Virus record (IMG/VR): IMGVR_UViG_3300032220_001339
Coordinates: 1-40,394 of that record
DNA: 40,394 nucleotides
Direction: 5' to 3' (one strand)
Source: a virus
The notes under the pieces are model-generated. The model had not been told where the DNA came from. It saw nothing but the letters and a program-made list of their open reading frames with translations, and searched no databases. The translations under genes were made by a program, and so were the position numbers. Positions 1 through 40,394 of this stretch are shown in pieces (position 1 is the first letter of the stretch; each line of letters opens with the position of its first letter).

Positions 1-305
1 GACTCGTCATCGAGTTCTTCTTCTTCCTTCATGCCAGACATAGGCATTGCAGATTTTGCACCTTTGTTGACAACATCTCTGACTTGCTTGAGTGTTGCTC
101 CAGGTGTTTTCAGCTTTGCTGAATCATCATCTGGCTTATAGTTTTCTGGGGTAGGACCTCCAAGGTCTTCCCATGAACCAGTTTGACCAGCGACAGCGCC
201 GCCAGCTAATTTTGGCATCCCTTCTCCCGCCTTAGCATTTGCATTAACGGCAGTTTTGGATTGCTTAGTGCCTATTTCCATTTCTTGTAAATCTCCACGA
301 GACAT
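1..305 (-). CDS. 22: Prohead core scaffold protein gp22, partial (N-terminal ~101 residues)
   Basis: The visible part starts with MSRGDLQEME and continues through Gly/Ala/Lys-rich, probably disordered sequence to an acidic stretch (KEEEELDDES) at the window edge, so the C-terminal part is missing. In T4-like phages gp22 is the main internal scaffold of the prohead; it assembles on the portal and is later degraded by the gp21 protease. The call rests on position directly after gp21 and on the familiar N-terminus of marine T4-like gp22. The start is supported by a good Shine-Dalgarno sequence (GGAGAG, 5 bases before the ATG) and by a late promoter-like element further upstream at 344-352. The major capsid gene gp23 is expected beyond the left edge. 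Confidence 0.82.
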   Translation of the reverse strand, partial: MSRGDLQEMEIGTKQSKTAVNANAKAGEGMPKLAGGAVAGQTGSWEDLGGPTPENYKPDDDSAKLKTPGATLKQVRDVVNKGAKSAMPMSGMKEEEELDDE

Positions 306-9420: not shown

Positions 9421-11319
9421 TTAGCAGTTCCAAGCTCTAAGTGATTTGTTAATTCTTGAATCGGGATCGTTTGCAGTTTTTGCTGAGGTTAATTTTCTCT
9501 TCATTCCTTTCATACGGGCACAAAAGGAATCTCTACGAGAACCACCTTCTGGTTGTGGTCTTTGTAGATTGCTGCCAGGATGTTCTCTTTCATAGGACTT
9601 ACGCCCCTTTTCATTTAAACCACCCGACTGAGACTTTCCTTCCTTTCTTTGCCATGCAGCAACCTCTTCAATATTCTCTTCACCAATTGTTTTATTATTC
9701 AGAAGATAATTTTTTGATTTGGAGTTTACGACCTGAATCAAAGGCATTCCTGGTTGAAGTGTTGAAACATTGTACTGAAGAACTTGAGCTCCTGGATATA
9801 CTTTTTGGATTTCGGTGGTCACATCTTTTTTGGAAGGCATTCCTGACTGTGGGAAGAACATTCTGATTGAATATGCCTTTCCTCTCCAATTCAAGATAAC
9901 TGCAATAATATTTCCAGTTTCTGATTGTAGACGTGTTGTTTCACTTACCTGTTGCTTAAATCCCTTAATTGGATCTGGTTTGATAACATCAATCACTTCA
10001 GCAAATGTATTTCCATTTGCATCTTCAATTGTTACATCTTCATTTTTGGTTTTATTTCCCCAATTTTTGGCACCAGCTTTACGACATTTTACAAGTGCTC
10101 CTGATGCATATGCGGAAGGCCAAACTTTATACCTTGATTTGACTTTTTCTTTACATGCGTCTTCATTTACATACTCTTCTGTTGCAACATTTATTGCCTT
10201 ACCTTTTCTATCTGGATTTGGGTCTTCTCTCCTTTTTCTTCTTGCTGCACTATCCTCTTCCTCTGGGGACATTTCTGCTGACATTTTAGAACTACCGCAT
10301 TTTGGTTTAGTAGTTTGTCCTGGTTGTTTTGCACATGATTTGCCTGCATATTTTCCACCTAATTGAACCCATCCGGGTTTTCCATCAGAAGATTTACTTT
10401 TTGCAAACCAATCATGAAGCGATGAATCTCCAGACTTTGATGCTTCTTCAATATCATTAAGAATATCTGCAACAATTCCTCTATGTTCTTTTAATTTTGG
10501 TAGAGCAACTGCTGCTGCCTTTTTCTTTTGAAGTGCCACTGCCTTATCTCCAAGTTGCTTTGCTGCATCTGGAGTTAATGCACCAGCACCTGATGACTTT
10601 TTAATTTCAAATCCAAGTGTTTTTGCTTCATTTGTTGGAACACAATTTGGAACCATTCTTTTTCCTTTTTTCTTTAAACCCTCTTGTTTATATCCAACCC
10701 AACATGCTTCATCAACTTCTGATTTTGGTTTTATGCCTTTCTTTTTCATATTAATTGCAATTGCTGCTTGTTGAGCGGGATTTGCTGCTTCTTCCATTTC
10801 TCCACTTGCAACATAGTCTGCCGCAGTATCTAAGTAATCTGCTGCTTTCGTAATTTTTGATTGGACCCATGCTTCAACATTTCCTTCTCCCTTACCCATC
10901 TTTTTCTGAAGTCTCTTAACAGCACTGATAACTGTAGATAGTTCAGAACGAGCCATAGAATATTCGTGATCTCTCACAGAAACTTTATCCCATGCTTTTC
11001 CGCCATAAGAACATTCTGAACGTGTCTCTCTTTTATCGCAAAGAGGACAATATCTTTGCTCATCATGAGATTCTTTTACATCTTTGAATTTTCTATGTTC
11101 CTTCTTAGCGGCCGCTTCCATTTTCTTTAAACGTGTATAGTAATCGGGAATTTCATCCAAATGCTGTAAGGCAATATCCATGGCAAGTGTATGATCTTTA
11201 GTATGTTCGTGCTCAATTGGTTCTCCCATGTCCAGTTGCTTCTGAATAAAAGAAACTTCCATACGATGTTTCTTTGCAATTTGTTCAACTGATTTGTGAG
11301 ATTTTAATTGCTCAGTCAT
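9421..11319 (-). CDS. Mosaic multi-module protein (DUF5661-, DUF5872- and DUF6321-like segments), 632 aa
   Basis: The function is unknown. The protein is a string of short modules. Residues 1-80 resemble DUF5661 (EHEHTKDHTLAMDIALQHL, DYYTRLKKME). Residues 91-103 hold a CPLC...C candidate metal site. Residues 110-172 include EAWVQSKITKAADYLDTAAD. Residues 205-228 carry ACWVGYKQEG and MVPNCVP. Residues 303-345 carry DWFAKSKSSDGKPGWVQLGG with Cys329 and Cys341. Residues 388-422 resemble DUF5872 (RYKVWPSAYASGALVKCRK). Residues 430-535 form a beta-rich domain. Residues 551-632 resemble DUF6321 (AAWQRKEGKS, KTANDPDSRINKSLRAWNC). Linkers are Lys/Ala-rich; there is no signal peptide or membrane segment. 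It sits directly before gp17 with its own late promoter-like element, suggesting a virion or head-associated role. Family names are from memory and need a profile search. Confidence 0.75.
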   Translation of the reverse strand: MTEQLKSHKSVEQIAKKHRMEVSFIQKQLDMGEPIEHEHTKDHTLAMDIALQHLDEIPDYYTRLKKMEAAAKKEHRKFKDVKESHDEQRYCPLCDKRETRSECSYGGKAWDKVSVRDHEYSMARSELSTVISAVKRLQKKMGKGEGNVEAWVQSKITKAADYLDTAADYVASGEMEEAANPAQQAAIAINMKKKGIKPKSEVDEACWVGYKQEGLKKKGKRMVPNCVPTNEAKTLGFEIKKSSGAGALTPDAAKQLGDKAVALQKKKAAAVALPKLKEHRGIVADILNDIEEASKSGDSSLHDWFAKSKSSDGKPGWVQLGGKYAGKSCAKQPGQTTKPKCGSSKMSAEMSPEEEDSAARRKRREDPNPDRKGKAINVATEEYVNEDACKEKVKSRYKVWPSAYASGALVKCRKAGAKNWGNKTKNEDVTIEDANGNTFAEVIDVIKPDPIKGFKQQVSETTRLQSETGNIIAVILNWRGKAYSIRMFFPQSGMPSKKDVTTEIQKVYPGAQVLQYNVSTLQPGMPLIQVVNSKSKNYLLNNKTIGEENIEEVAAWQRKEGKSQSGGLNEKGRKSYEREHPGSNLQRPQPEGGSRRDSFCARMKGMKRKLTSAKTANDPDSRINKSLRAWNC

Positions 11320-11342
11320 TTGAGATTTAATTTTTATAAAGG

Positions 11343-11349
11343 TATTTAT
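11343..11349 (-). promoter_or_regulatory. T4-type late promoter-like element before the mosaic protein
   Basis: The minus strand reads ATAAATA (within TTCATAAATACC), 24 bases before the ATG of the 632-residue gene. Confidence 0.52.
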
Positions 11350-11394
11350 GAATTAATTGATGTTCTAACTAACTTAAAAGTCGTTGATGTTAAT

Positions 11395-11643
11395 TTATGG
11401 AGTTATATTTGGATATCTTAAAATAATAATTCCTGAACCCCCATTTCCTCCTGTTGTGGGAAGATACCCAGATCCTCCGCCACCACCTCCCATAGTAGGG
11501 CTTCGCGCTGCGCCACCTCCTCCAGCATTTCCTTGTCCAGTAGTTCCAGTACCTCCCGATGACCCAAATCGGGAGCCGCCACCGCCGCCACCAGAACCAT
11601 CAGAACCACCAAGTCCTCCTCCAGTGTAGGTATGAGAGACGCT
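11395..11643 (-). pseudogene. Orphan C-terminal fragment of a glycine-rich adhesin
   Basis: This frame encodes about 80 residues of Gly/Ser-rich sequence (TYTGGGLGGSDGSGGGGGG) ending in GGSGIIILRYPNITP. That closely echoes the C-terminus of the intact adhesin just upstream (GGSGIVIIRYRL). The frame has no usable start and is preceded by an in-frame stop (11644-11646), so it looks like the decapitated tail of a second adhesin gene left by recombination or deletion. An alternative reading in another frame (a 63-codon Leu/Glu/Val-rich frame from a GTG at 11609 with GGAGG 5 bases upstream) is possible but more likely a by-product of repeated GGN codons. Confidence 0.6.
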
Positions 11644-11697
11644 TTACTTCTGATGGTCTCGGTTGCAGAAGGTTAAGGAATGTGTTGATTTCTTAAC
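11636..11697 (-). ncRNA. Predicted structured RNA: hairpin plus H-type pseudoknot
   Basis: On the minus strand, just after a consensus promoter, two adjoining structures can be drawn. A hairpin pairs GTTAAG (11697-11692) with CTTAAC (11677-11672). Directly next to it, CTTCTG (11671-11666) pairs with CAGAAG (11652-11647), and its loop base GAGAC (11660-11656) pairs with GTCTC (11640-11636), giving a compact H-type pseudoknot with loops of 5, 3 and 6 bases. The promoter, size and phage context recall small cyanobacterial/cyanophage riboswitch-like RNAs such as glutamine-II (downstream-peptide), but I could not confirm the conserved positions. Pairings are seen; function is inference. Confidence 0.5.
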
Positions 11698-11705
11698 ATC
11701 TATTT

Positions 11706-11734
11706 ATTATAGCACCGAACACAAATGGTGTCAA
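11706..11734 (-). promoter_or_regulatory. Consensus sigma70-type promoter (TTGACA-N17-TATAAT)
   Basis: The minus strand has a perfect -35 box TTGACA (11734-11729), a spacer of exactly 17 bases and a perfect -10 box TATAAT (11711-11706). Initiation would fall near 11699, at the first base of the predicted structured RNA. The -10 box runs into AATAAATA, a late-promoter-like string, so both polymerase forms might use the site. It lies in the 430-base stretch without an intact gene between the glycine-rich adhesin and the mosaic protein. Confidence 0.7.
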
Positions 11735-11749
11735 TGGGTTAAAGATCTT

Positions 11750-12706
11750 TTATAAACGATAACGGATGATGACGATACCTGATCCACCAGATCCACCGCT
11801 TCCGCTTGGGGTGCCAAGTGAGCCTCCTCCGCCACCTCCAGTATTTATGGTTCCAGCAACACCAGTAACACCATTTCCACCTTTTCCTCCGCCACCAGCA
11901 CCGCCTGTCATGGGAGCAGCTCCTGGGAAGGCACCCCCCCCTCCTCCACCAGCAAAATATCTTCCAGGTGCTGGTCCAGGTGTTCCATAAGATGAAGGAA
12001 TTCCAGCATCTCCTTGAAATGCTGGCAATCCAGAACCACCAGCACCACCAGATTGTGGATAAACTCCAGCGCCGCCAACATTACCAGCACCGCCGCCGCC
12101 TCCTCCAACAGAATTTGGGGGGGAAGGCGATAGTGAAGCAGCACCACCAGAACTTCCTTGTCCTGAAGTGCCAGTTCCTCCACTGTTGGTAGGGGCAGCA
12201 CCTCCACCACCAGATCCTCCAGGACTACCTGATACACCAACACCTGTTGAACCTCCCTTACCGCCTCCAGTTGCAGTTATTGTAGTAAATGTTGGTGGTC
12301 CAGAGATAGTTGTTGGAGTTCCATTTGCAGATCCAGTACCAGATGGTCCTACACCACCTGATCCACCTGGACCAATAGAAATTGTATAAGTTCCTGCAAA
12401 TATTATAGTATTAGTTGTTGATACATATCCACCAGCTCCACCGCCACCAGCTCCGCCGCCACCAGAACCGCCGCCACCGCCGCCGCCAGCAACTAAAATA
12501 TAATCAAGAGTTCCACCATTACCTACAACAAAACTTCCAGGTGCTGTAAAAATATGATAACGATATCCATTACCTGGAGTTAAAATTGTTCCTCCATCTG
12601 CAGAAATTCTTGTGATATTTTGTGAGTGTTGTGTTTTACTTTTTCCACTCAAAAGATAATCACTGAGAGCGGTTCTTAGTCCAAATCTACCACTTCTAAA
12701 AGACAT
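11750..12706 (-). CDS. Glycine-rich tail fibre adhesin-like protein, 318 aa
   Basis: A short N-terminal domain (MSFRSGRFGLRTALSDYLLS) is followed by a beta-rich start (YHIFTAPGSFVVGNGGTLDYILVAG) and then about 240 residues dominated by glycine runs, ending GGSGGSGIVIIRYRL. This is the glycine-rich domain architecture of phage tail-tip proteins; in T-even gp38-type adhesins, glycine-rich motifs form polyglycine II sandwiches that carry the receptor-binding loops. The likely role is host recognition at the tip of a neighbouring fibre. The start has AGAGGC 8 bases upstream and follows the 135-residue gene by 4 bases. A tract of eight G (11934-11941) lies inside the coding region and could slip. 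Confidence 0.8.
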   Translation of the reverse strand: MSFRSGRFGLRTALSDYLLSGKSKTQHSQNITRISADGGTILTPGNGYRYHIFTAPGSFVVGNGGTLDYILVAGGGGGGGSGGGGAGGGGAGGYVSTTNTIIFAGTYTISIGPGGSGGVGPSGTGSANGTPTTISGPPTFTTITATGGGKGGSTGVGVSGSPGGSGGGGAAPTNSGGTGTSGQGSSGGAASLSPSPPNSVGGGGGGAGNVGGAGVYPQSGGAGGSGLPAFQGDAGIPSSYGTPGPAPGRYFAGGGGGGAFPGAAPMTGGAGGGGKGGNGVTGVAGTINTGGGGGGSLGTPSGSGGSGGSGIVIIRYRL

Positions 12707-16363: not shown

Positions 16364-16801
16364 TTATTTAGGAGAATCGTTGATGCTATTATTTTTCAAA
16401 AGTTTAGCCAGTTCAGCAGTTGACCCAACAAAAAGTGCATTCGTAACATTTGTTGGCCCCTTTATTCCTCTATCTTCTTCAATATCTTTTAGTTTCTTTT
16501 GAAGATCCATTAATTTGTCAGTTGCATCAGCCACATTTTTAATTAATTGGCCAGCAACTTCATATGCTCTTGGCATTTCGCTTTCTTGAGCAAGTTCCAG
16601 AATACCATTAATAGCTTCTTGACCTTTTTCTATAAGAGAATATAAATTTCCTCTAGTATAATCATAATCTTTTTTTACATCATCTATAGAATTTGAAATT
16701 TTTTCAATTTTTTCTACTGGTGCCTCTGGACTATTAGAAACTACTTCTCCTGTGACATTAAATGCATCGTTCAAACTATCAAATTTTTTTGTCATTTTCA
16801 T
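16364..16801 (-). CDS. 16: Terminase small subunit gp16
   Basis: The 145-residue protein matches the T4 gp16 family: helical core SIDDVKKDYDYTRGNLYSLI, EKGQEAINGILELAQES, PRAYEVAGQLIKN and the conserved C-terminal GPTNVTNALFVGSTAELAKL. gp16 oligomers recognise replicated DNA and stimulate the gp17 motor during packaging initiation. The start is an ATG with a second Met at residue 3, a few bases after the gp15 stop. In T4, genes 16 and 17 overlap; here gp17 is separated from gp16 by about 7 kb of fibre and mosaic genes, which is notable because the two products must act together. Confidence 0.95.
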   Translation of the reverse strand: MKMTKKFDSLNDAFNVTGEVVSNSPEAPVEKIEKISNSIDDVKKDYDYTRGNLYSLIEKGQEAINGILELAQESEMPRAYEVAGQLIKNVADATDKLMDLQKKLKDIEEDRGIKGPTNVTNALFVGSTAELAKLLKNNSINDSPK

Positions 16802-29570: not shown

Positions 29571-29577
29571 TATTTAT
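29571..29577 (-). promoter_or_regulatory. T4-type late promoter-like element upstream of gp8
   Basis: The minus strand reads ATAAATA within GATAAATAAATAAAA, 18 bases before the gp8 start and touching the stop codon of the giant gene. Confidence 0.48.
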
Positions 29578-32500
29578 CACATATAGTTTAGGTATTTTAG
29601 GGAATTTGCTCTCTTAAGGATCGTTCCCGTACTTATACCAGCAAATCCATTTAAAGTATATGCATTATAAGAATTATCTTTGGATCTAAATCCAAGAACA
29701 ACTTTTCCCCAACTAAATTCGCCATAAAAATTACTGTATCCAATTCCAGTTAATCCATTATAACTTGAAACTCTTACAGTTACTTTTGCAACATAAGTTA
29801 CTCCAAAACCAATTGCTGAAGTTTGTGCTATTGAAACTGCTGCCACTTGATATACATTATCTAAGAAGGTTGATCCTATTCCAACTGTAGATCCAGAAGA
29901 ATTAAGCGAAGTCACTCCCCCACCAACATTAGAGTTATAAACTGTAAAATAATATCCAGTTTGAATTCCACTAATGGTTGTTAATCCAGTTACTGAAGAA
30001 TTTCTAAGGAAAGAATTTTTTGGAATAACAAAATCAAATACAATTCCTGTTGTTGCAACTCCAACAACAGAAGTTGTTGCTATACCAGTTATAACACCAA
30101 AATCGCCCTCATAAGTAGTAACAGTATTGTCTTCAAGTGTGAAAGATGGAAATTCAATCAATACAAGAGGTGGATTTGTATTAGTATAACCTGTTCCGGG
30201 AGAAGTTATACTTATTGAAGTAACAATTCCAGAAGTAATTGATGCGGCCGCTGCTGCTCTTTGGGTAGTACCAAGTCCAACAGGATTTTCTATAATTACT
30301 GAAGGATTAGTTGAATATCCAACACCGCCATTGGAAATAACCAATGAAGATATAGTTCCAGCAGCAGATACAATTGCCGTTGCAGCTGCTGCAACTTTAG
30401 AGTCCTGAGATAATAGTTTAATATCTCTTTGGAAAATTAGTGAGGTGTTGTTTTCATTTATTGGATTGAAGAAAGGTCTAATGTTATCAACATAAGCGAT
30501 AGTAGATCCAATTCCAACAGATTGAATAAGATATGATGTTGGATAAATTGATGCTTCATAAAGCATACGATCCTTTCCAACTTCTTTTTCATTAATAATT
30601 TTATCTTCAGTTTGTCTGCACCAAACTACTGGCCTTAATAATGTTTCATCGCCACTATTTCCTGGACCAAAATATGGATTTGTATTAACCAAATCAGTTG
30701 AATTAACACTTGTAACTGTTCTTGAATTTTCTTGTAGTGTTGAACTTTGTCCAATAGATGCATCATAACCAATAGTTAATTCGTCACCAATTTTAACAGT
30801 TTCTAAAATATTTCTTTCAACAACATCAATAGATCCACTTCCTTTATAGAAAATAATTTTCGAAGTATCTCCAACCTTTGGAGCATCAGTAAATGTTATT
30901 GAACTTCCTCCGGGGAATAGATAACCTACGCCCGGTACTTGTAGAACATCATTAATAAAGACAAGAAGTGAATCTTGTACATTAATTCCAGATCCTTTTG
31001 AAGAAAGTATCGAAGTTAAATTGCCAAGATATGTAATTGGGAAAACAATTCTTTCTCCATCAAATAAACCATCAAGGCTATCTAATACTTGCAATTCACC
31101 GAGAGACCAACCAGTAAATTTGTCTGCAAATGTATTTTGAATACTAATTTGGAATTCTGCAAAACTTGCACTTGATGTTGTTGGAATTCCTACAAGTCCT
31201 CCTAATGGAATAGTTAATATCTCTCCCTGCCCATAACCATATCCAGTGTTCTTTAATTCAAAATCAATAACACTGGATCCTTGTCCAACAACGATATCAA
31301 TAGTTGCTTGAGTTCCAATTCCAGATGAGGATGAACTGTAAATTAATGGAATATTGGAATATGAAAGCGGACTATCAATAAAAACGTATGGTGGATTAGT
31401 TCTTGTGTATCCAATTCCTGGATTAGTTACTGCAATACTAACAATACTTCCATTGGATACAGATGCTGTCCCAATAAATTGAATATTTGAAATTCCAGTT
31501 GAAGAGGTTCCCACCCCAACTCTAACTGTTTGTACCCCTACACGATAACCAGATCCACTATTGCCAATACTAATAGAAGAAATCGTTCCTGCGACTGAAA
31601 CTATTGCTGTTCCTCCTGCTCCAATAAGAGGTTGATATCCAAATCCTTCATAAGAACCAACTGATACAATAATTCCACCAACTGGAAGATTTGAACTATT
31701 AACATCATATGCAGCTGAAATTCCAGTACCAACAAAACCAATCGATGTTATTCCAGTATTTTCTGATAAATTATATCCTCCAGACAATCCAGGTGCTTGG
31801 AAGATGTCATTTATCAATATAACTGCATTTTCGGTGGATATTCCTGTCACATTAGAATTATTTGATTTTAGAGTAAAATCTTTTTTGACACCATTAAAGG
31901 TGGAAGAAATGTCATCAAAAATATAATTTTTATAATATGTTTCGTTAGTTGTGTTTGGTGTTCCAGATCGTAAGAAACTTCTACCTTGGAAATTTGATGA
32001 TGTTGATATTCCCAACCAATCTCTTTCATTAGGAGAATTTGTACTTGTACTTAAAGGAATATTTCCATATGGTGCCTCGACAAAATTAATAATATTATCA
32101 ACAATATTATAATTTCCGGAAACTTTTGTTACTAATGTTCCAGTTGAATATCCTGCAACTACAGTTCCAAGCCATGGCCTACGAACTTTTATAGCGTTTG
32201 TACTTCCAAATCCAACTGCATCAATTCTCATAATTTCGCTGCCGATCTTAATCAAATCACCGCCAAAGAATGATGTTATCCCTGCAAAGTAAATTACATC
32301 ATCAGTTGTAAATGCATTAGTTGCCAATTTATTAGTAACTGCACTTGCAACAACTGGAGATTGAATAAGATTATCAATTGCAACTATAACTTTAGCATTT
32401 TGATTTTTTGAAGTAAATGCATGTGTAGTTCCTATGCCAACGCTTGTAAAGTCTAAAGTTGATGGTATTGATTTGAGAGCATCTTCTGCACTTCTTGCAA

Positions 32501-35500
32501 GTCTGATTGAGTTATTATTTAATTTTACAACATAAACGCTTGATGGCAGTTTATTGGTAGAACCAACACTTACAAAAGATGTAGTAGCAATGCCAATTGC
32601 CGATGTAGTACCAGCTCCTGCACTAGTGTAGACTAACTCTTCTCCACTTACAAAGAAATGGTTCGGTAATTTTATAGTATTTGTTGTTATATCAACTATT
32701 GCAGAATTACTTCCATCAAAAGATCTTTGGAAGATTTGATAACCCTCATGATTTAGATCAAATGCCCTCTTAATATCTCTTTCAGTTCCATCATATGTTC
32801 CATAATTTGTTTCTATAGTTGCATTATTGAAATTAACAATATCTTTGTCATCATCCTGATGTCTTAATGCATTAAAGAATATTTTCACATCTACATTAAT
32901 ATTTGGAAGAGGTGTAAACGTTAATTTTGTTGATGATGTTGTTGCAGCGCCTACAGTTCCAAGTCCAGCAAAAGTTTCAATATTAGCATATTCAGTAATA
33001 TATGTTTCCGTTCCATCATCTAGAACAACAATCTCCGATAATTGATGCCTATTATTAGTTACATCAGAAACTTGAAGTATTCCATATAAGCAATCATATT
33101 CATCTGGATATTCTGCAATTACTGATGCTATTGGTGATGTTGATGAGGCTATTGATGTTGATGTTGCCTGCAAGCGGGCATGTTTCATGTCAAAAGTACC
33201 AATACCTGATGATAGACTGTTTCCAATAGCAACTTGAATTGTATTAATTGTTGCCGCTATTCCAACGCTTGGGGTAAAATCAATTTTTAATTGAGATCCT
33301 GACAAATATGGATAGTATGTACCCAAACCAGTATTTGAATAAGCGTTTTGCGATAAAGTTGTCAATTCACCATAATCTATAAATTCAACTGAAGATCCAT
33401 TATGCAAAACATTTAATTCATTAAATTGATAGTCTCCATTTGAACCTGTAATTTCAACCAAAACTTTTGCTGATCTATAGGTATTTGCAATTGAAACAAT
33501 CGTAGTTGCTCCAGAAGAAACACTAACGCTACTTGTTAATATATCAACAATTCCACCAAAATTGGAAGATCCAGTGCTAATAAGATTGTCATTTAAATTA
33601 TATGATAATGTACTTACCTCATAATCATTAACGGAATATCTTGTTGGGTAGAAAAATATAACACCCTCAGTTCCTTCGACACCGAAATCAAATGATCCTT
33701 GATCATAAGTACTTTCAATTCTTCCATATTGGTTAATATAACCAATAGAATCATCATGCAAGAGAGTTAACAGCATTACTTGTCTTTGTGCTGTATATCT
33801 TCTATCTCTGATATAAGTAATATATTTTTGAGCTCTACTTTCACCAAGTTCAAATCTATGAACTTCACTAAATCTTGTTGATCTTGGGTTGCTATTAAAT
33901 TGATTACTAATATCATCAATTGATAGTACTCTATTTCCAACCGATTCAAAATAATCCGTTAAAATTCTATTTGAAAATGTTACTTCATCCGAAAATTGCG
34001 AAGATCCAATTTCTAATGAATTTTCTTTTACTAGATCAAAATCATAAACACAATTTAAATCAACAACACCAACAATATCATTTGTAACTTCAAAGGATGT
34101 CAGATCTGTTGAAAGTCCAACAATCATTGAGTTTGCATTTAATTTTGGTAATGAAGACTCTAACTGATAATCAGCAAACTTTTTAAATCCTAAAGTATGA
34201 TTTAAAGTGCTTACTACGTCTTTCCAAGTATCATAATCTACTTTAGATTTTAAAGAATATGAAAAGTTTTGATAATAAAAACTATCTTGAATTCTTTGTA
34301 AGTTTTCATTTAAGAAACCAGCATCAATTTGCCATCCCTTTTCTACAGTTGATTTTGAACTTAAAGTTAAGAAAGAATCAAATATATTAATAGAAGAAAT
34401 AAGACCTTGGGTTTTGGATACCAATCCTTCTATGACTTCCTCAACAACAAAATCTTCTGTAGAACGTATCTTTAAATAATTTGTTGTAGAATTCCAATCC
34501 TCAACATATCCAGTAGAAGAAAAAGATTTAACACCTTCTCCAGTAAGAAAATCATTCTTTTTAAGGATTGGATTAAAAGTTGGGAAATATTTTTGAGGTA
34601 CAATTCTTCCTGAAGAATTAGTTGAATTATATGTTCCTGGAATTTCTCCAGAATTTAAAAATCCATCTAAACTATATCTAACTGTTGCATTATTTCCACC
34701 AAGATTTGCATCGACATAATTGATTGTAAATAATTGATAATTATACCCGGAGGAATTAAATCCTTTAGAGGTAGAGCCAACTCCAACACTAACATTTTCA
34801 ATTAAAACCTTATCATTAACAGCAAATGGGAATGTATCTGCAGTACTAAATCCAACAGATAATGTAATCGTTACATCATTAGTAGTTGTATTAAATCCTA
34901 CAGAGCTAATGCCAACACCATTTGAATTTTGTGTGGGCAAAATAGTAGGAGATACGTTATATAAACCATAAGCATTTTTTAATATTGTTACTTGATCATC
35001 TCCAAGATCATATCTTAAATCAACCTCAGGAACAATTTGGTTTGTTTTTCCATCCAAAACAATTAGTTTTGGTGGTGAACTATATCCTCTTCCAACAGAA
35101 GTAATTCCAATTGATTTAAATGATGCTAAAGGTTCTATTTTTGCAATTTGTGGTAGAGATACACTTGGTCTAATTGTGAAATCGGATGGAAAATCAAATC
35201 CAATATTATTAATTTTAGTTTTCTTTATTTCACCTATTGATTCGCTAGATGGCTCTAATAATGCTCCAGATCCAATATCTGAAATAACTGTTGATATACC
35301 TGGAAGAGAATAATAATTTTGACCTTTACTTGTAATATCGACTTTGGAAATCGGTCCATATGCAGAGGTTGAATCGGTTTCATAACTCAATATAGAAGAA
35401 CCTGATGTGTATGATGATAATTCAGGAGACTGTGGTAGATTATATGTAAATGAAGTCGTTGAAGTAGAAGTTATTACATGCTTTCCATTGTAAGAACTTA

Positions 35501-38500
35501 CTTTTATTTGAATTTCATTATTTGAAAATACAGAAGAATCTATATTTATTTCTTCCTTTTGAATTGGAAGATTGCTATTATAAACGGGAATTAATGTATA
35601 ATAAAGTTTTTCTGGAAGATATTCATTAACAGTTAAAACAACTTTTGCATCAGCACTCACACCAACGGTGCCAAATCTTTGAACTTCGAAAATATTAGAT
35701 TGCTTAGTTGTATCAAATACTTCTGTAAAGTTTGAATCTTTATAAAAATTCAAACTAAATGCGGGATAACTATTTGCCTGATTTACATAAGAAAGAGAAG
35801 AATCTGACAAATCAAAAGTTACTGTTGAATTTTTGTAAACTTCAATAGGAGGATTAATTGCCGAAAGAGTTCCATCTGAGGAACTAGTAATTCCTACAAT
35901 GATTGGGTTTGAACTAACTGCATCATAATAAGTGTTAGATAGTTTGATTGTATTATTGTCAACAAAAACAATATAATAAATTTGGTTATTTTGAAGTCCT
36001 CCTGATGGAGATGTTGAAGTATGAACTACTTTTTGTCCATTAACAAATCCATGATTAGAAATTGTTATTGTTTCTGAAGTTGTATTAACACCTGCTAATG
36101 CAAAAGTTTTTGGGTTTACAAGTAACTTTCTATTATAATCATTATATTTAATTACAACTGAAGTTGATATTGATGGGTTTACATCAACAAAAACAGTATC
36201 ATTATTCTCTAAACCATGAGTTTCTGCAATGGAAACAGTAACTAAATTTCTAGAAATCTGTCCACTAATAACTGAATAATTTGTTTGGAAACTATGATAA
36301 GTGCCAGATCCAATGCCAGTAAAGTATAACGTTCCAAGCCCATTTGTTGCCGTTGTAATGCCTACAAATGTTCCAGTAGATCCTAGACCAACCTTTACAG
36401 TGGATATTCCAATCAAATCATCAGAAACTTTTGCAACATATAGAGTTGATTGATTTGAAAGAGTGACTGAGCTAGAAATTCCATTTGTAGAAATTCCAAG
36501 AACAATACCGCCATTTGGAGAGTATGTAAGTTGATCTCCAGTTTGAAGTTGGTGATTTGGAATATAAATTGTTCTGGTTGGAATAAAAATTTGAGTGATT
36601 CCTGTACCAGGATTTGAGAAAGATATTGTTGTTCCAATTCCAACTCCAAATCTAGTACCCAATCCCACAGATTCAATTGGATTGAAGTATATCTGCTTGT
36701 TGAATGTATAATTGTATGAAGTTTTAAATCCAGTATTTACTGTTAATTTTCTCAGATCTTCATATAAAATTTCTGAAGCAGTATGTGCAGATCCTGTGGT
36801 GTTATTAACTGATCTTAGAACTCTAATTCTTGAAGATTTTGTATCAATATTTAAAATCTTCACTTTCTCTGTACCTATCGTGAAAATATCATTTTCACGA
36901 ATATAATTTGAATTTAAGTTTCCAGAAACTGAAAAATAGGTAACAATTCCAGTAGATCCTGTTGTACCAACGCCTACAGTAAGTGATAAAGTATTGAGAG
37001 TTGAAATCCCAGCATTATAAGACCCTTCTATCAATGTTGCAAATGTACTTAGTCCAGAAACTGATATAATATCATTATTTGTAAAATTATGAGGATTTTG
37101 TGAAAAAATAACAATCGATCCTTTATTATCTGCAGGATAAAATTCAGCATTATAAATTGTGCTTGTAGCTACACTAACATAGTTTATTTCCTTTCCTTGC
37201 AATCTGGAAATTTTTGCACTTGCACTATATCCCTTTGTATTTGAATTATTAAAAACTACAGGATCATTAATTTTATAATTATTGCCACCTGTTGTTATTC
37301 CAATATTTTCAATAAATCCTGGAGAAGCATATTTGACATCAACAGTTTGATTTAAAAGATTTGGTATTGTTAGATATGCATAAGATGCATTATTATTAAT
37401 TAAATTATATGGATAAGTATTTCTTGCCCAATTTGTTTTATTTAAATCAATTTCATCTTGATTTGATGATTTTTTAAAGTTAAAATCATTTGGTTTTGAT
37501 TTGTAATTTTCCCCAATTAAATATGGGAAAGTTGGCCTCTTATATCCTACAAAAACTCCAGAAGAATCTGTTGAAGAATTATTAATTGTTGCAAAATATG
37601 CATAAGTTCCATTTGGAAATTCTGGAGTTATGCAAAATCTGCCATTATTTTGATCTAAAACTGTTTCGTCCGTAACTTTTTGGTAGGTATAGTCTTCAAC
37701 AAAAAATCCAAAAGGAAATTCTGTTAATGATGGTCTATTTGATTTTAGATCCTCAACATAACCAGATTTCATCTGGGATACTACCCCACCTTGATTGGTT
37801 GTATAACCATAAGGTCCATAAATTGGATTTCCGTCATATGCCCATCCAATAATTGGAGAATGGTCTGTAGACGAAACTTCAATATTAGCAACTTTCTTTA
37901 AATCAGTTTTTGATCCACCATATAAGACATTTCCAGATGCATCTACGGAATAAATTATTTCTCTAAGTTTTCTTGGTGCATATACATGAGCATATTCTAA
38001 TCCATAATCAGAATTGATACCATTAGTAATAAATCCATCGTCATTTGTGATTGTGTTGAAACATTTTTGGAAAAGATTGACATTCCAAGAAGTTATTTTT
38101 GGTAAAAATTCCACTCCAGTTCCAGAAGAACTGACATTTATGAAAGTATTATCTGCTGAATATCCAATTCCACCTTCAATAATTTCTACTGATTGAATTT
38201 GTCCATTCTGAATAACTGGAGTAATAACAGCACCTGTCCCATTACCAATTATTGTTAGATTTGGAGAGGAATTGTAGTTTGATCCACTATTATTAACCAA
38301 TACTTCAACTAATTTTCCATCGGAAATAATGGGAGTAAGTTGAGCATCAGAACCAGTATCTACAGTAACCAATGGCAATCTGTTATAATTCAGAATATCT
38401 GATGATCCATATCCAATTCCACCACTAGAAAGATGAACAGAAGTGATTTGTCCTCTAAAAATTGGTTGAATAACGGCCTTAAAAGTATTTCCATTGGTCG

Positions 38501-40394
38501 AAGAAATACCAACACTCCCAACAACCTCTACAGAAATTTCTGGATAATTGAATATATGAGTTCCAGAACCAATTGAATTAAATTTGATGTATTGATTTGT
38601 TCTATAGTAAAAATTTTGATTTGTTGTTCCAAGACCTACTTGTGATAATTTGAAGTTATTCTCATCAATTGTTGTTACATAATAATTTGTATTTGTAGAT
38701 AATCCGCCAATTGATGTTCCATCTGTATTGTATGTTATTATCTCTCCAGATTTAAATTCATGATTTTCTAAATTGATAGAGTTTAAAGATGTACTAATTC
38801 CACTAGAGAGACTAGTTTTTTTCTTATTTTCGTATCCGCTTCCGGAATTAACTACAGTAACTGATGCTAAAATTGATTTTTTATTATAGGATTCAATAAT
38901 ATGACTTCCAGTGCCATAAGAAGTTAAAGTAACGGTATTGATACCAGATACGGCGTCATCTAAAGTTTTATGAAATTTAATTGTATATGGAGATGCGGTT
39001 GAAACATAGTATGAAGAGTCTGTAGATAATCCACCAACTGCTTTTTGTCCATCTGTTCTATAAACAACTCTTTCAGCATTTTTAAACTTATGATATGTGC
39101 TAAACCCAATTGTTGATAATGTACTTCCTATAGAAACAATGCCAGCATTAAGTTGTGAATTAAAAATCACCTGATGAGATATCAGTTTCATATTTGCTAA
39201 TGCTGTGGCATTAATACCATTACCACCACTAATGTTTATAACTGGTGTTCCTTCATAATCAAATCCAGGATCAATAATCCTAATTTCCTTTAGATTGCCA
39301 CTTACTGCACAATATCCAGTAGCACCAGTTCCAACAGAATCGCTGATGTTTAGGATTGGGGGATTGATAATATCATAATTAGAACCCGGAGAAGTTACTT
39401 CAATTGATTTGATTGGTCCATAATAAACAGAATCTGTTGACTTGTAATTTAGAATTTCAACGCCATTGACCAGTATACCAGTCAATCCAGGTTTTGTTGG
39501 ATAAATTTCTCCGTCATTAACCGCTGTTGAAATTTCTCTCAATAGCTTCTGTGAATTTAAAGTTTTTGATCTGAACTTATAAAGTTCAACTGTATTATTA
39601 ATCACTGAAGTGCTAGCGAGCACTTCTACAAAAATAGAATTGTTTATGTTTGTTCTACTCTTCGCAAATTTTACATTATTTGCATCTATTCTCTTAATAA
39701 AATATAATCCTTCATCAAATAATGAACTACCATCAGTAATAATTGTTGTTTGATTTCCATCGCCATCAACTAAAATAGTTTCTATTTTTTCTGGACTATA
39801 ATAAACTAAATCTCCAGTATAAAATCCATGGTCAACACCGGATGTAATAGCAAAAATATCTGTTGATCCAGTACCTACTGAAGGAAATGTTCCAGTAAAA
39901 GTTACTAATCTATTTGAAGCATCAAGAGACTGTTGATTATAATATGGTAGTGATGGTGATGAAACTAATATTCTATCTTTAATTTTATAAACATTTTGAA
40001 CATTAGCATCTAATGTTGAAATTGTTGAAGATGCTGAGGAATTTACTTTTAGTAAATTTCTTCTTACTACATAAGTTTCTGTTAATGACAGCTCTCCCTG
40101 TCCCCTAATTGAAAAGGATGTTTGTGAAGTGATATCCAATACAGTAGAAACTTTTTCAACACCACTTCCACTTATAATAGTTAAACTATCACCAATCTTA
40201 AGTATATGTTTATTTTTTGTAACTATGCGATAGGTATTATCTGAACTATCAATTCTAGCCAAAGATGCAACATCATATGATGTTGCTAGGTTAAATAACC
40301 AATTATTTGAAAAGGAATCCTGTGGATTAATTCCAAGAGTTTTAATTTCTGCAGTATCGCCCTTAGAATAGTAATAAGTTTTATCAACTATATC
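29577..40394 (-). CDS. Giant repeat-built structural protein with YHYH domain, partial (at least 3605 aa; gp7-like position)
   Basis: The reading frame stays open to the right edge, so the N-terminus is missing; translation from the last base gives DIVDKTYYYSKGDTAEIKT joined in frame to the rest. It contains a YHYH-type domain at about 37566-37875 (IIGWAYDGNPIYGPYGY, NGRFCITPEFPNGTYAYFAT). At least six NHxFxxG...YYV...IKL modules and more than ten GxGYxxxP-type modules are also present. An EIM/RG-type module lies near 32100-32290, and the C-terminus contains YGEFSWGKVVLGFRSKD. No enzymatic motif was seen. Position before gp8 is where T4 has gp7 (1032 residues), the wedge initiator, so a baseplate or baseplate-fibre role is likely, but homology to gp7 itself is not evident. 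At over 10.8 kb it is more than a quarter of the window. Confidence 0.85.
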   Translation of the reverse strand, partial: DIVDKTYYYSKGDTAEIKTLGINPQDSFSNNWLFNLATSYDVASLARIDSSDNTYRIVTKNKHILKIGDSLTIISGSGVEKVSTVLDITSQTSFSIRGQGELSLTETYVVRRNLLKVNSSASSTISTLDANVQNVYKIKDRILVSSPSLPYYNQQSLDASNRLVTFTGTFPSVGTGSTDIFAITSGVDHGFYTGDLVYYSPEKIETILVDGDGNQTTIITDGSSLFDEGLYFIKRIDANNVKFAKSRTNINNSIFVEVLASTSVINNTVELYKFRSKTLNSQKLLREISTAVNDGEIYPTKPGLTGILVNGVEILNYKSTDSVYYGPIKSIEVTSPGSNYDIINPPILNISDSVGTGATGYCAVSGNLKEIRIIDPGFDYEGTPVINISGGNGINATALANMKLISHQVIFNSQLNAGIVSIGSTLSTIGFSTYHKFKNAERVVYRTDGQKAVGGLSTDSSYYVSTASPYTIKFHKTLDDAVSGINTVTLTSYGTGSHIIESYNKKSILASVTVVNSGSGYENKKKTSLSSGISTSLNSINLENHEFKSGEIITYNTDGTSIGGLSTNTNYYVTTIDENNFKLSQVGLGTTNQNFYYRTNQYIKFNSIGSGTHIFNYPEISVEVVGSVGISSTNGNTFKAVIQPIFRGQITSVHLSSGGIGYGSSDILNYNRLPLVTVDTGSDAQLTPIISDGKLVEVLVNNSGSNYNSSPNLTIIGNGTGAVITPVIQNGQIQSVEIIEGGIGYSADNTFINVSSSGTGVEFLPKITSWNVNLFQKCFNTITNDDGFITNGINSDYGLEYAHVYAPRKLREIIYSVDASGNVLYGGSKTDLKKVANIEVSSTDHSPIIGWAYDGNPIYGPYGYTTNQGGVVSQMKSGYVEDLKSNRPSLTEFPFGFFVEDYTYQKVTDETVLDQNNGRFCITPEFPNGTYAYFATINNSSTDSSGVFVGYKRPTFPYLIGENYKSKPNDFNFKKSSNQDEIDLNKTNWARNTYPYNLINNNASYAYLTIPNLLNQTVDVKYASPGFIENIGITTGGNNYKINDPVVFNNSNTKGYSASAKISRLQGKEINYVSVATSTIYNAEFYPADNKGSIVIFSQNPHNFTNNDIISVSGLSTFATLIEGSYNAGISTLNTLSLTVGVGTTGSTGIVTYFSVSGNLNSNYIRENDIFTIGTEKVKILNIDTKSSRIRVLRSVNNTTGSAHTASEILYEDLRKLTVNTGFKTSYNYTFNKQIYFNPIESVGLGTRFGVGIGTTISFSNPGTGITQIFIPTRTIYIPNHQLQTGDQLTYSPNGGIVLGISTNGISSSVTLSNQSTLYVAKVSDDLIGISTVKVGLGSTGTFVGITTATNGLGTLYFTGIGSGTYHSFQTNYSVISGQISRNLVTVSIAETHGLENNDTVFVDVNPSISTSVVIKYNDYNRKLLVNPKTFALAGVNTTSETITISNHGFVNGQKVVHTSTSPSGGLQNNQIYYIVFVDNNTIKLSNTYYDAVSSNPIIVGITSSSDGTLSAINPPIEVYKNSTVTFDLSDSSLSYVNQANSYPAFSLNFYKDSNFTEVFDTTKQSNIFEVQRFGTVGVSADAKVVLTVNEYLPEKLYYTLIPVYNSNLPIQKEEINIDSSVFSNNEIQIKVSSYNGKHVITSTSTTSFTYNLPQSPELSSYTSGSSILSYETDSTSAYGPISKVDITSKGQNYYSLPGISTVISDIGSGALLEPSSESIGEIKKTKINNIGFDFPSDFTIRPSVSLPQIAKIEPLASFKSIGITSVGRGYSSPPKLIVLDGKTNQIVPEVDLRYDLGDDQVTILKNAYGLYNVSPTILPTQNSNGVGISSVGFNTTTNDVTITLSVGFSTADTFPFAVNDKVLIENVSVGVGSTSKGFNSSGYNYQLFTINYVDANLGGNNATVRYSLDGFLNSGEIPGTYNSTNSSGRIVPQKYFPTFNPILKKNDFLTGEGVKSFSSTGYVEDWNSTTNYLKIRSTEDFVVEEVIEGLVSKTQGLISSINIFDSFLTLSSKSTVEKGWQIDAGFLNENLQRIQDSFYYQNFSYSLKSKVDYDTWKDVVSTLNHTLGFKKFADYQLESSLPKLNANSMIVGLSTDLTSFEVTNDIVGVVDLNCVYDFDLVKENSLEIGSSQFSDEVTFSNRILTDYFESVGNRVLSIDDISNQFNSNPRSTRFSEVHRFELGESRAQKYITYIRDRRYTAQRQVMLLTLLHDDSIGYINQYGRIESTYDQGSFDFGVEGTEGVIFFYPTRYSVNDYEVSTLSYNLNDNLISTGSSNFGGIVDILTSSVSVSSGATTIVSIANTYRSAKVLVEITGSNGDYQFNELNVLHNGSSVEFIDYGELTTLSQNAYSNTGLGTYYPYLSGSQLKIDFTPSVGIAATINTIQVAIGNSLSSGIGTFDMKHARLQATSTSIASSTSPIASVIAEYPDEYDCLYGILQVSDVTNNRHQLSEIVVLDDGTETYITEYANIETFAGLGTVGAATTSSTKLTFTPLPNINVDVKIFFNALRHQDDDKDIVNFNNATIETNYGTYDGTERDIKRAFDLNHEGYQIFQRSFDGSNSAIVDITTNTIKLPNHFFVSGEELVYTSAGAGTTSAIGIATTSFVSVGSTNKLPSSVYVVKLNNNSIRLARSAEDALKSIPSTLDFTSVGIGTTHAFTSKNQNAKVIVAIDNLIQSPVVASAVTNKLATNAFTTDDVIYFAGITSFFGGDLIKIGSEIMRIDAVGFGSTNAIKVRRPWLGTVVAGYSTGTLVTKVSGNYNIVDNIINFVEAPYGNIPLSTSTNSPNERDWLGISTSSNFQGRSFLRSGTPNTTNETYYKNYIFDDISSTFNGVKKDFTLKSNNSNVTGISTENAVILINDIFQAPGLSGGYNLSENTGITSIGFVGTGISAAYDVNSSNLPVGGIIVSVGSYEGFGYQPLIGAGGTAIVSVAGTISSISIGNSGSGYRVGVQTVRVGVGTSSTGISNIQFIGTASVSNGSIVSIAVTNPGIGYTRTNPPYVFIDSPLSYSNIPLIYSSSSSGIGTQATIDIVVGQGSSVIDFELKNTGYGYGQGEILTIPLGGLVGIPTTSSASFAEFQISIQNTFADKFTGWSLGELQVLDSLDGLFDGERIVFPITYLGNLTSILSSKGSGINVQDSLLVFINDVLQVPGVGYLFPGGSSITFTDAPKVGDTSKIIFYKGSGSIDVVERNILETVKIGDELTIGYDASIGQSSTLQENSRTVTSVNSTDLVNTNPYFGPGNSGDETLLRPVVWCRQTEDKIINEKEVGKDRMLYEASIYPTSYLIQSVGIGSTIAYVDNIRPFFNPINENNTSLIFQRDIKLLSQDSKVAAAATAIVSAAGTISSLVISNGGVGYSTNPSVIIENPVGLGTTQRAAAAASITSGIVTSISITSPGTGYTNTNPPLVLIEFPSFTLEDNTVTTYEGDFGVITGIATTSVVGVATTGIVFDFVIPKNSFLRNSSVTGLTTISGIQTGYYFTVYNSNVGGGVTSLNSSGSTVGIGSTFLDNVYQVAAVSIAQTSAIGFGVTYVAKVTVRVSSYNGLTGIGYSNFYGEFSWGKVVLGFRSKDNSYNAYTLNGFAGISTGTILKRANSLKYLNYM

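Follow-up and report, generated by a model that had tools for sequence, protein, structure and literature searches.

Gene order around the cassette

The window analysed here is the whole 40,394-nucleotide stretch of the viral record IMGVR_UViG_3300032220_001339. Its minus strand carries, in order, gp13- and gp14-like connector genes, the gp15 tail sheath stabiliser, the small terminase gp16 (16364-16801), a tail-fibre gene, a 135-aa gene, gly1, a 117-nt promoter-leader cassette (11734-11618), gly2, the gene of a 632-aa PHROG 727 protein (9421-11319), the gp17 large terminase, and the sheath, tube and portal genes. gly1 (11750-12706, minus) encodes an intact glycine-rich protein (Pfam Gly_rich_2) and ends 15 nt before the -35 box of the cassette. 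gly2 (11395-11617, minus) is the C-terminal fragment of a glycine-rich virion-type gene whose in-frame start is lost. Its frame (SHTYTGGGLGGSDG...GGSGIIILRYPNITP) is closed upstream by an in-frame TAA at 11646-11644 and offers no start codon until an internal ATG at 11493; translation might begin at an unrecognised codon. The PHROG 727 gene has a late box of its own, (N)ATAAATA, at 11343-11350 (minus). An ORF of 3561 aa (29577-40262, minus; listed with a TTG start) that contains a YHYH domain also encodes a virion-type protein. No psbA was found in the 40-kb contig; since this is probably only a part of a genome several times longer, psbA may be located elsewhere.

Among 80 relatives of the 632-aa protein, the interval from gp16 to the PHROG 727 gene is variable. 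Its unbroken form is seen in contig L190, where a 132-aa homologue of the 135-aa gene precedes a pair of intact glycine-rich genes separated by 10 nt, and then come the PHROG 727 gene and gp17. From this layout, about 280 codons at the 5′ end of the second tandem glycine-rich gene, between gp16 and gp17, would have been replaced by the leader. Two other histories were considered and rejected. That a single glycine-rich gene was split by the leader does not fit the finding that gly1 has a complete C-terminus and gly2 one of its own. That the site between gp16 and gp17 is the normal location of psbA, lost there by deletion, finds no example, as none of the 80 relatives has psbA or the PhotoRC-II core between gp16 and the PHROG 727 gene.

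Promoter and folded RNA

On the minus strand, positions 11734-11618 comprise TTGACA-N17-TATAAT, AAATA, a hairpin, a stem-loop with an H-type pseudoknot, TCATACC and half of another hairpin. The boxes and pairings given in a preliminary description of this DNA (promoter, hairpin, P1 and pseudoknot) are all present as read there. Its extent, 11636-11734, captured a real element and was too short at one end, as the homologous cassette reaches 11618.

The sigma-70-type promoter (11706-11734; TTGACA at 11734-11729, TATAAT at 11711-11706) has 12 of 12 consensus bases and a 17-nt spacer. It is the sole exact TTGACA/TATAAT occurrence in the window, against an expectation of 0.21. A cyanophage late box, AATAAATA (11708-11701, minus), overlaps its -10 box. 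The late motif of cyanophages is NATAAATA, and early and late promoters overlap in the cyanomyoviruses S-PM2 and Syn9 (PMC2984593). All 15 of the NATAAATA boxes in the window are on the minus (coding) strand and none is on the plus strand. Among the 116 distinct psbA leaders used for comparison, TTGACN-15..19-TANNNT is present in 111, the spacer is 17 nt in 105, and AAATA overlapping the -10 box creates the late motif in 105. The host-type promoter had been considered out of place among T4-type late promoters. As psbA leaders retain both the sigma-70 promoter and the late box, such a promoter is not foreign to the cassette but is its ordinary one; what is out of place is the entire leader, which here lacks psbA.

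The 5′-terminal hairpin, P0 (11672-11697, minus), is formed by GTTAAGAAAT and ATTCCTTAAC with one A-C mismatch, GTTAAG (11697-11692) pairing with CTTAAC (11677-11672), and begins about 2 nt past the predicted transcription start (~11699). Its folding energy of -2.9 kcal/mol was equalled by 3 of 200 shuffles. Over 17 homologues, 91% of cells are paired and three pairs change on both sides, and 29 of 500 shuffles were as good on two-sided change. P1 (11647-11671, minus), read directly and from the RF01717 alignment, pairs CTTCTG (11671-11666) with CAGAAG (11652-11647) around the loop CAACCGAGACCAT. The pseudoknot pairs GAGAC (11656-11660, minus) with GTCTC (11636-11640, minus). In homologues, mainly leaders retrieved via the psbA protein and not via the core pattern, 91.4% of cells pair, four of the five pairs change on both sides, and none of 500 shuffles matched this. 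The alternative pairings are GAGAT/ATCTC, AAGAC/GTCTT, AGGAC/GTCCT, GGGAT/ATCCC and GGGGC/GCCCC. Judged by these compensatory changes, the pseudoknot is under selection in the PhotoRC-II family; comparative support for P0 is weaker. The conservation beyond this contig and the compensatory changes on which the preliminary description had made its reading depend are thus found. PhotoRC-II was already listed among families with covarying pairs missed by the database structure (Rivas 2020; PMC7657543), and for this reason no novelty is claimed here for the pseudoknot. The minimum-free-energy fold of a 101-nt stretch is unremarkable (z -0.10); hence, folding energy alone lends no support to a structured RNA, and the support comes from homology. 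The cassette ends with TCATACC and the 5′ half of P2 (CCTACAC, loop start TGGAGG; 11618-11635, minus).

Family identity and truncation of the leader

At Rfam gathering scores, no family matched in the whole window; PhotoRC-II (RF01717) emerged solely in a permissive search. In a cmscan of 451 bases with E up to 10, it ranks first at 32.1 bits (E 0.0016 for the 451 bases, 3.3e-5 for the whole contig), short of the gathering score of 39. The other matches (MIR4359, Betaproteobacteria-1 and FAM13A-AS1_2; E 4.8-9.4) were dismissed as chance. The contig holds one copy, in which P1 with the conserved loop ACCGAGACC and the downstream GTCTCTCATACC match PhotoRC-II exactly. The P1 subtype CTTCTG/CAGAAG occurs in 23 viral contigs, and its intact members score 62-67 bits; the lower score of the window copy results from the loss of the P2 3′ arm. 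Its closest relatives, L292/L294 (67 bits), lie directly before psbA and share 91.5% identity with the window over 117 nt (blastn). This identity, together with the RF01717 match, bears out the earlier view of a structured RNA, of a cis-acting type, directly behind a consensus promoter.

The core pattern was found in at least 120 stretches of IMG/VR and, among the matches listed with enough 3′ sequence, psbA follows at a distance of about 70-80 nt in nearly all; of the 145 distinct core matches found, 135 adjoin psbA. When the 501 bases around the element were compared with 50,697 phage records (blastn), one match was obtained, situated 72 bases ahead of psbA in Synechococcus phage S-CREM1. 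The core pattern was absent from all 84,980 genomes of bacteria and archaea searched. On sequence grounds, the cassette is a truncated copy of the PhotoRC-II psbA leader of T4-like cyanophages, sharing common descent with the psbA leaders. A divergent PhotoRC-II subtype with the core GCACCAGGA(A/C)TAGGC and the pseudoknot AGGA(C)/(G)TCCT was also observed (L301 10283-10373, L227 887-977 and L306 3735-3825). Furthermore, six contigs (L203, L205, L225, L226, L242 and L250) have the same hybrid promoter and 5′ hairpin before psbA without the PhotoRC-II core, indicating that promoter and hairpin form a separable module.

A compact hairpin and pseudoknot in a marine cyanophage had raised the idea of a functional metabolite riboswitch, of the glutamine-II/downstream-peptide or glnA type, or of a sensor of host nitrogen. 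However, RF01704 and RF01739 were unmatched in the 451-base cmscan at E up to 10, where PhotoRC-II appeared instead. Its homologues precede psbA, a photosynthesis gene, which gives nitrogen sensing no support. PhotoRC-II was also marked 'n' for riboswitch by Weinberg et al. 2010 (PMC2864571), and we consider this function extremely improbable. Experiments on PhotoRC-II were not found in the literature searched.

The truncation is sharply placed. The best 21 blastn alignments all stop at one base, 11618, within the P2 loop at CTGGAGG, and most promoter-spanning alignments start at TTGACA. Past CTGGAGG, intact relatives continue with GGGT, the P2 3′ arm and psbA, and the window continues with AGGACTTGGTGG. 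The P2 hairpin with its AGGGT loop is absent in the window: homology stops in the loop and the 3′ arm is gone. The blastn ends and a repeated word define the junction CTGGAGG|AGG (11615-11624, minus) between the psbA leader and glycine-rich coding sequence. The word CTGGAGGAGG lies at the junction and occurs a second time inside the glycine-rich fragment (11525-11516, minus); therefore, the join sits on a word common to both partners. CTGGAGG represents seven bases common to the leader P2 loop and glycine-rich genes. The exact junction was found in no viral contig searched besides this one. A looser junction pattern gave one match, in L320, which has neither psbA nor the window genes and was attributed to chance.

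Could the junction be an assembly chimera of psbA-bearing and tail-fibre-bearing phages? Its presence in one contig, on a short repeated G-rich word, speaks for this. However, both flanks derive from one locus and keep its gene order (gp13-gp16, fibres, PHROG 727, gp17), with just the 117-nt leader between them, which argues against a chimera. Moreover, two independent mis-joins inside 117 nt would be needed, and leader-virion junctions recur in other contigs. An artefact is thus quite unlikely.

Probable displacement of the leader, and related cassettes

Leaders stand before other genes in several contigs. In L301/L305, L306, L307-L309 and L314, the order is leader, a 386-aa gene (MSLSTNT...), a second leader and psbA. 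The first leader lies at 2373-2465 in L307, 2374-2463 in L305, 2374-2465 in L306 and 2375-2465 in L314; L301, L306, L307 and L314 have two leader copies each. L288 has a leader before the 386-aa gene, where the contig ends. In L064 (minus; core ~358-394), the leader is joined straight to the start of a tail-fibre-like gene (MSLSTNTTYRLF...), whose N-terminal module is that of the 386-aa gene, followed by a tail-fibre-like continuation. In L038, a leader is followed by a 103-aa ORF, an HNH-type ORF and then a second leader ahead of psbA.

As in the window, leaders before other genes keep P1 and, with one exception, the pseudoknot. P2 of the first leader is imperfect in L305 and L306. In L307-L309 it is chimeric, with unmatched arms (CCCGCC with GGTGTAGG), a pattern that a crossover within the P2 loop, where the window leader is also cut, would be expected to produce. 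By comparison, an uninterrupted P2 stem of six pairs or more is present in 126 of the 135 leaders next to psbA, a contrast to be read as a lead and not as a rate, because the sample of stranded leaders is small and partly picked by the neighbouring gene. HNH-endonuclease-like ORFs come before a psbA that has a leader of its own, behind the first leader in L038 (5985-4679, minus) and downstream of the 386-aa gene in L311 and L317, which suggests homing activity at the leader joint. Group I introns (Rfam RF00028) occur in or near phage psbA in L315 (1878-2121) and L317 (2176-2407), and psbA of L111 is split at ~1464/2176.

These contigs raise the question of whether the leader has been domesticated, that is, whether phages have come to use the PhotoRC-II promoter-leader as a portable regulatory cassette ahead of virion genes, so that its purpose in the window would be to drive the PHROG 727 gene and gp17. 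Its position before a tail-fibre gene, before the 386-aa gene adjoining psbA and in L038 speaks for this, as does the retention of P1 and the pseudoknot while P2 is imperfect in L305, L306 and L307. On the other hand, the gene right behind the window leader is a start-less fragment, and a separate late box, at 11350, precedes the PHROG 727 gene. Elsewhere too, there is mostly an own late box (L305-L309 and L314) and then psbA with a fresh leader, which fits simple insertion. Domestication is possible, but we regard it as rather doubtful.

Our preferred reading, in which we have high confidence, is that a psbA leader was displaced and truncated, stranded by recombination inside the tail-fibre cluster, and that it probably still acts as a promoter. 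Homology extends over TTGACA...CTGGAGG; the promoter, P0, P1 and the pseudoknot are intact; the P2 3′ arm is lost; psbA is missing; and a start-less fragment follows. Against stranding, the junction is known from one contig, and a family described as psbA-linked appears in a contig where psbA is absent. Recombination at short common words would have brought the leader there, with the downstream crossover probably at CTGGAGG. Where the leader is intact, its hybrid early/late promoter most likely lets psbA be transcribed early as well as late, and the stability or translation of the psbA mRNA is most likely governed by the 5′ hairpin, the pseudoknot and P2 together. In the window, control of psbA would have been lost. 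The promoter probably still fires, and the predicted RNA would start at ~11699 with the hairpin and pseudoknot and read through the gene fragment toward the PHROG 727 gene and gp17, with no terminator-like site before them. A free-standing small regulatory RNA ending shortly past the pseudoknot was also proposed, and a strong promoter straight before a structured RNA with no intact gene behind it would suit one. Nevertheless, the interval 11300-11800 contains no terminator-like site and the intact relatives are mRNA leaders, so that such an RNA is very unlikely.

Several contigs suggest that the leader is a recurrent joint at which tail genes and psbA recombine. We tentatively propose, as a possibility short of an even chance, that the psbA promoter-leader is both a portable regulatory module and a recombination joint. 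Its conserved short words (promoter, core and P2 loop) would let phages splice tail-fibre or other virion genes, HNH genes and psbA together, and stranded copies, keeping P1 and the pseudoknot, would drive any gene that came to follow them. The RNA family has been described before; to judge from a limited search of the open literature, neither its displaced copy nor the repeated joining of leader and virion genes seems to have been reported. Until now, PhotoRC-II has counted as a leader specific to psbA. The copies that lack psbA amount to deletion variants made by nature: in them the promoter, P0, P1 and the pseudoknot are parted from P2 and psbA, and this separation suggests the parts that can act by themselves. 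Such copies also provide a concrete joint at which cyanophages could exchange host-recognition (tail) and photosynthesis genes, both central to host range and fitness.

Compared with PhotoRC-II as described, the window copy has the AACCGAGACC...GTCTCTCATACC core, P1, the site just behind a promoter and the cyanophage origin. It differs in having no P2 3′ arm, a score below the cut-off and no psbA, and in lying in a tail-fibre cluster between gp16 and gp17. Cassettes called PeSLs were reportedly described in T4-like phages by Arbiol 2010 and Comeau 2014. PeSLs are promoter-early-stem-loop cassettes of T4-like phages (PMC4503421). They resemble the window cassette in having a sigma-70-type promoter with a stem-loop at once behind it, and perhaps in being a short repeated module where genes shuffle. 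In contrast, the PeSL stem-loop is a terminator-type hairpin, whereas that of the window is a psbA leader with a pseudoknot, which directly follows its promoter and shows no terminator-like site. The overlapping early and late promoters of S-PM2 and Syn9 (PMC2984593) are similar in that TTGACA/TATAAT is overlapped by NATAAATA; a difference is that perfect consensus hexamers, as in the window, are rare among psbA leaders (2 of 116).
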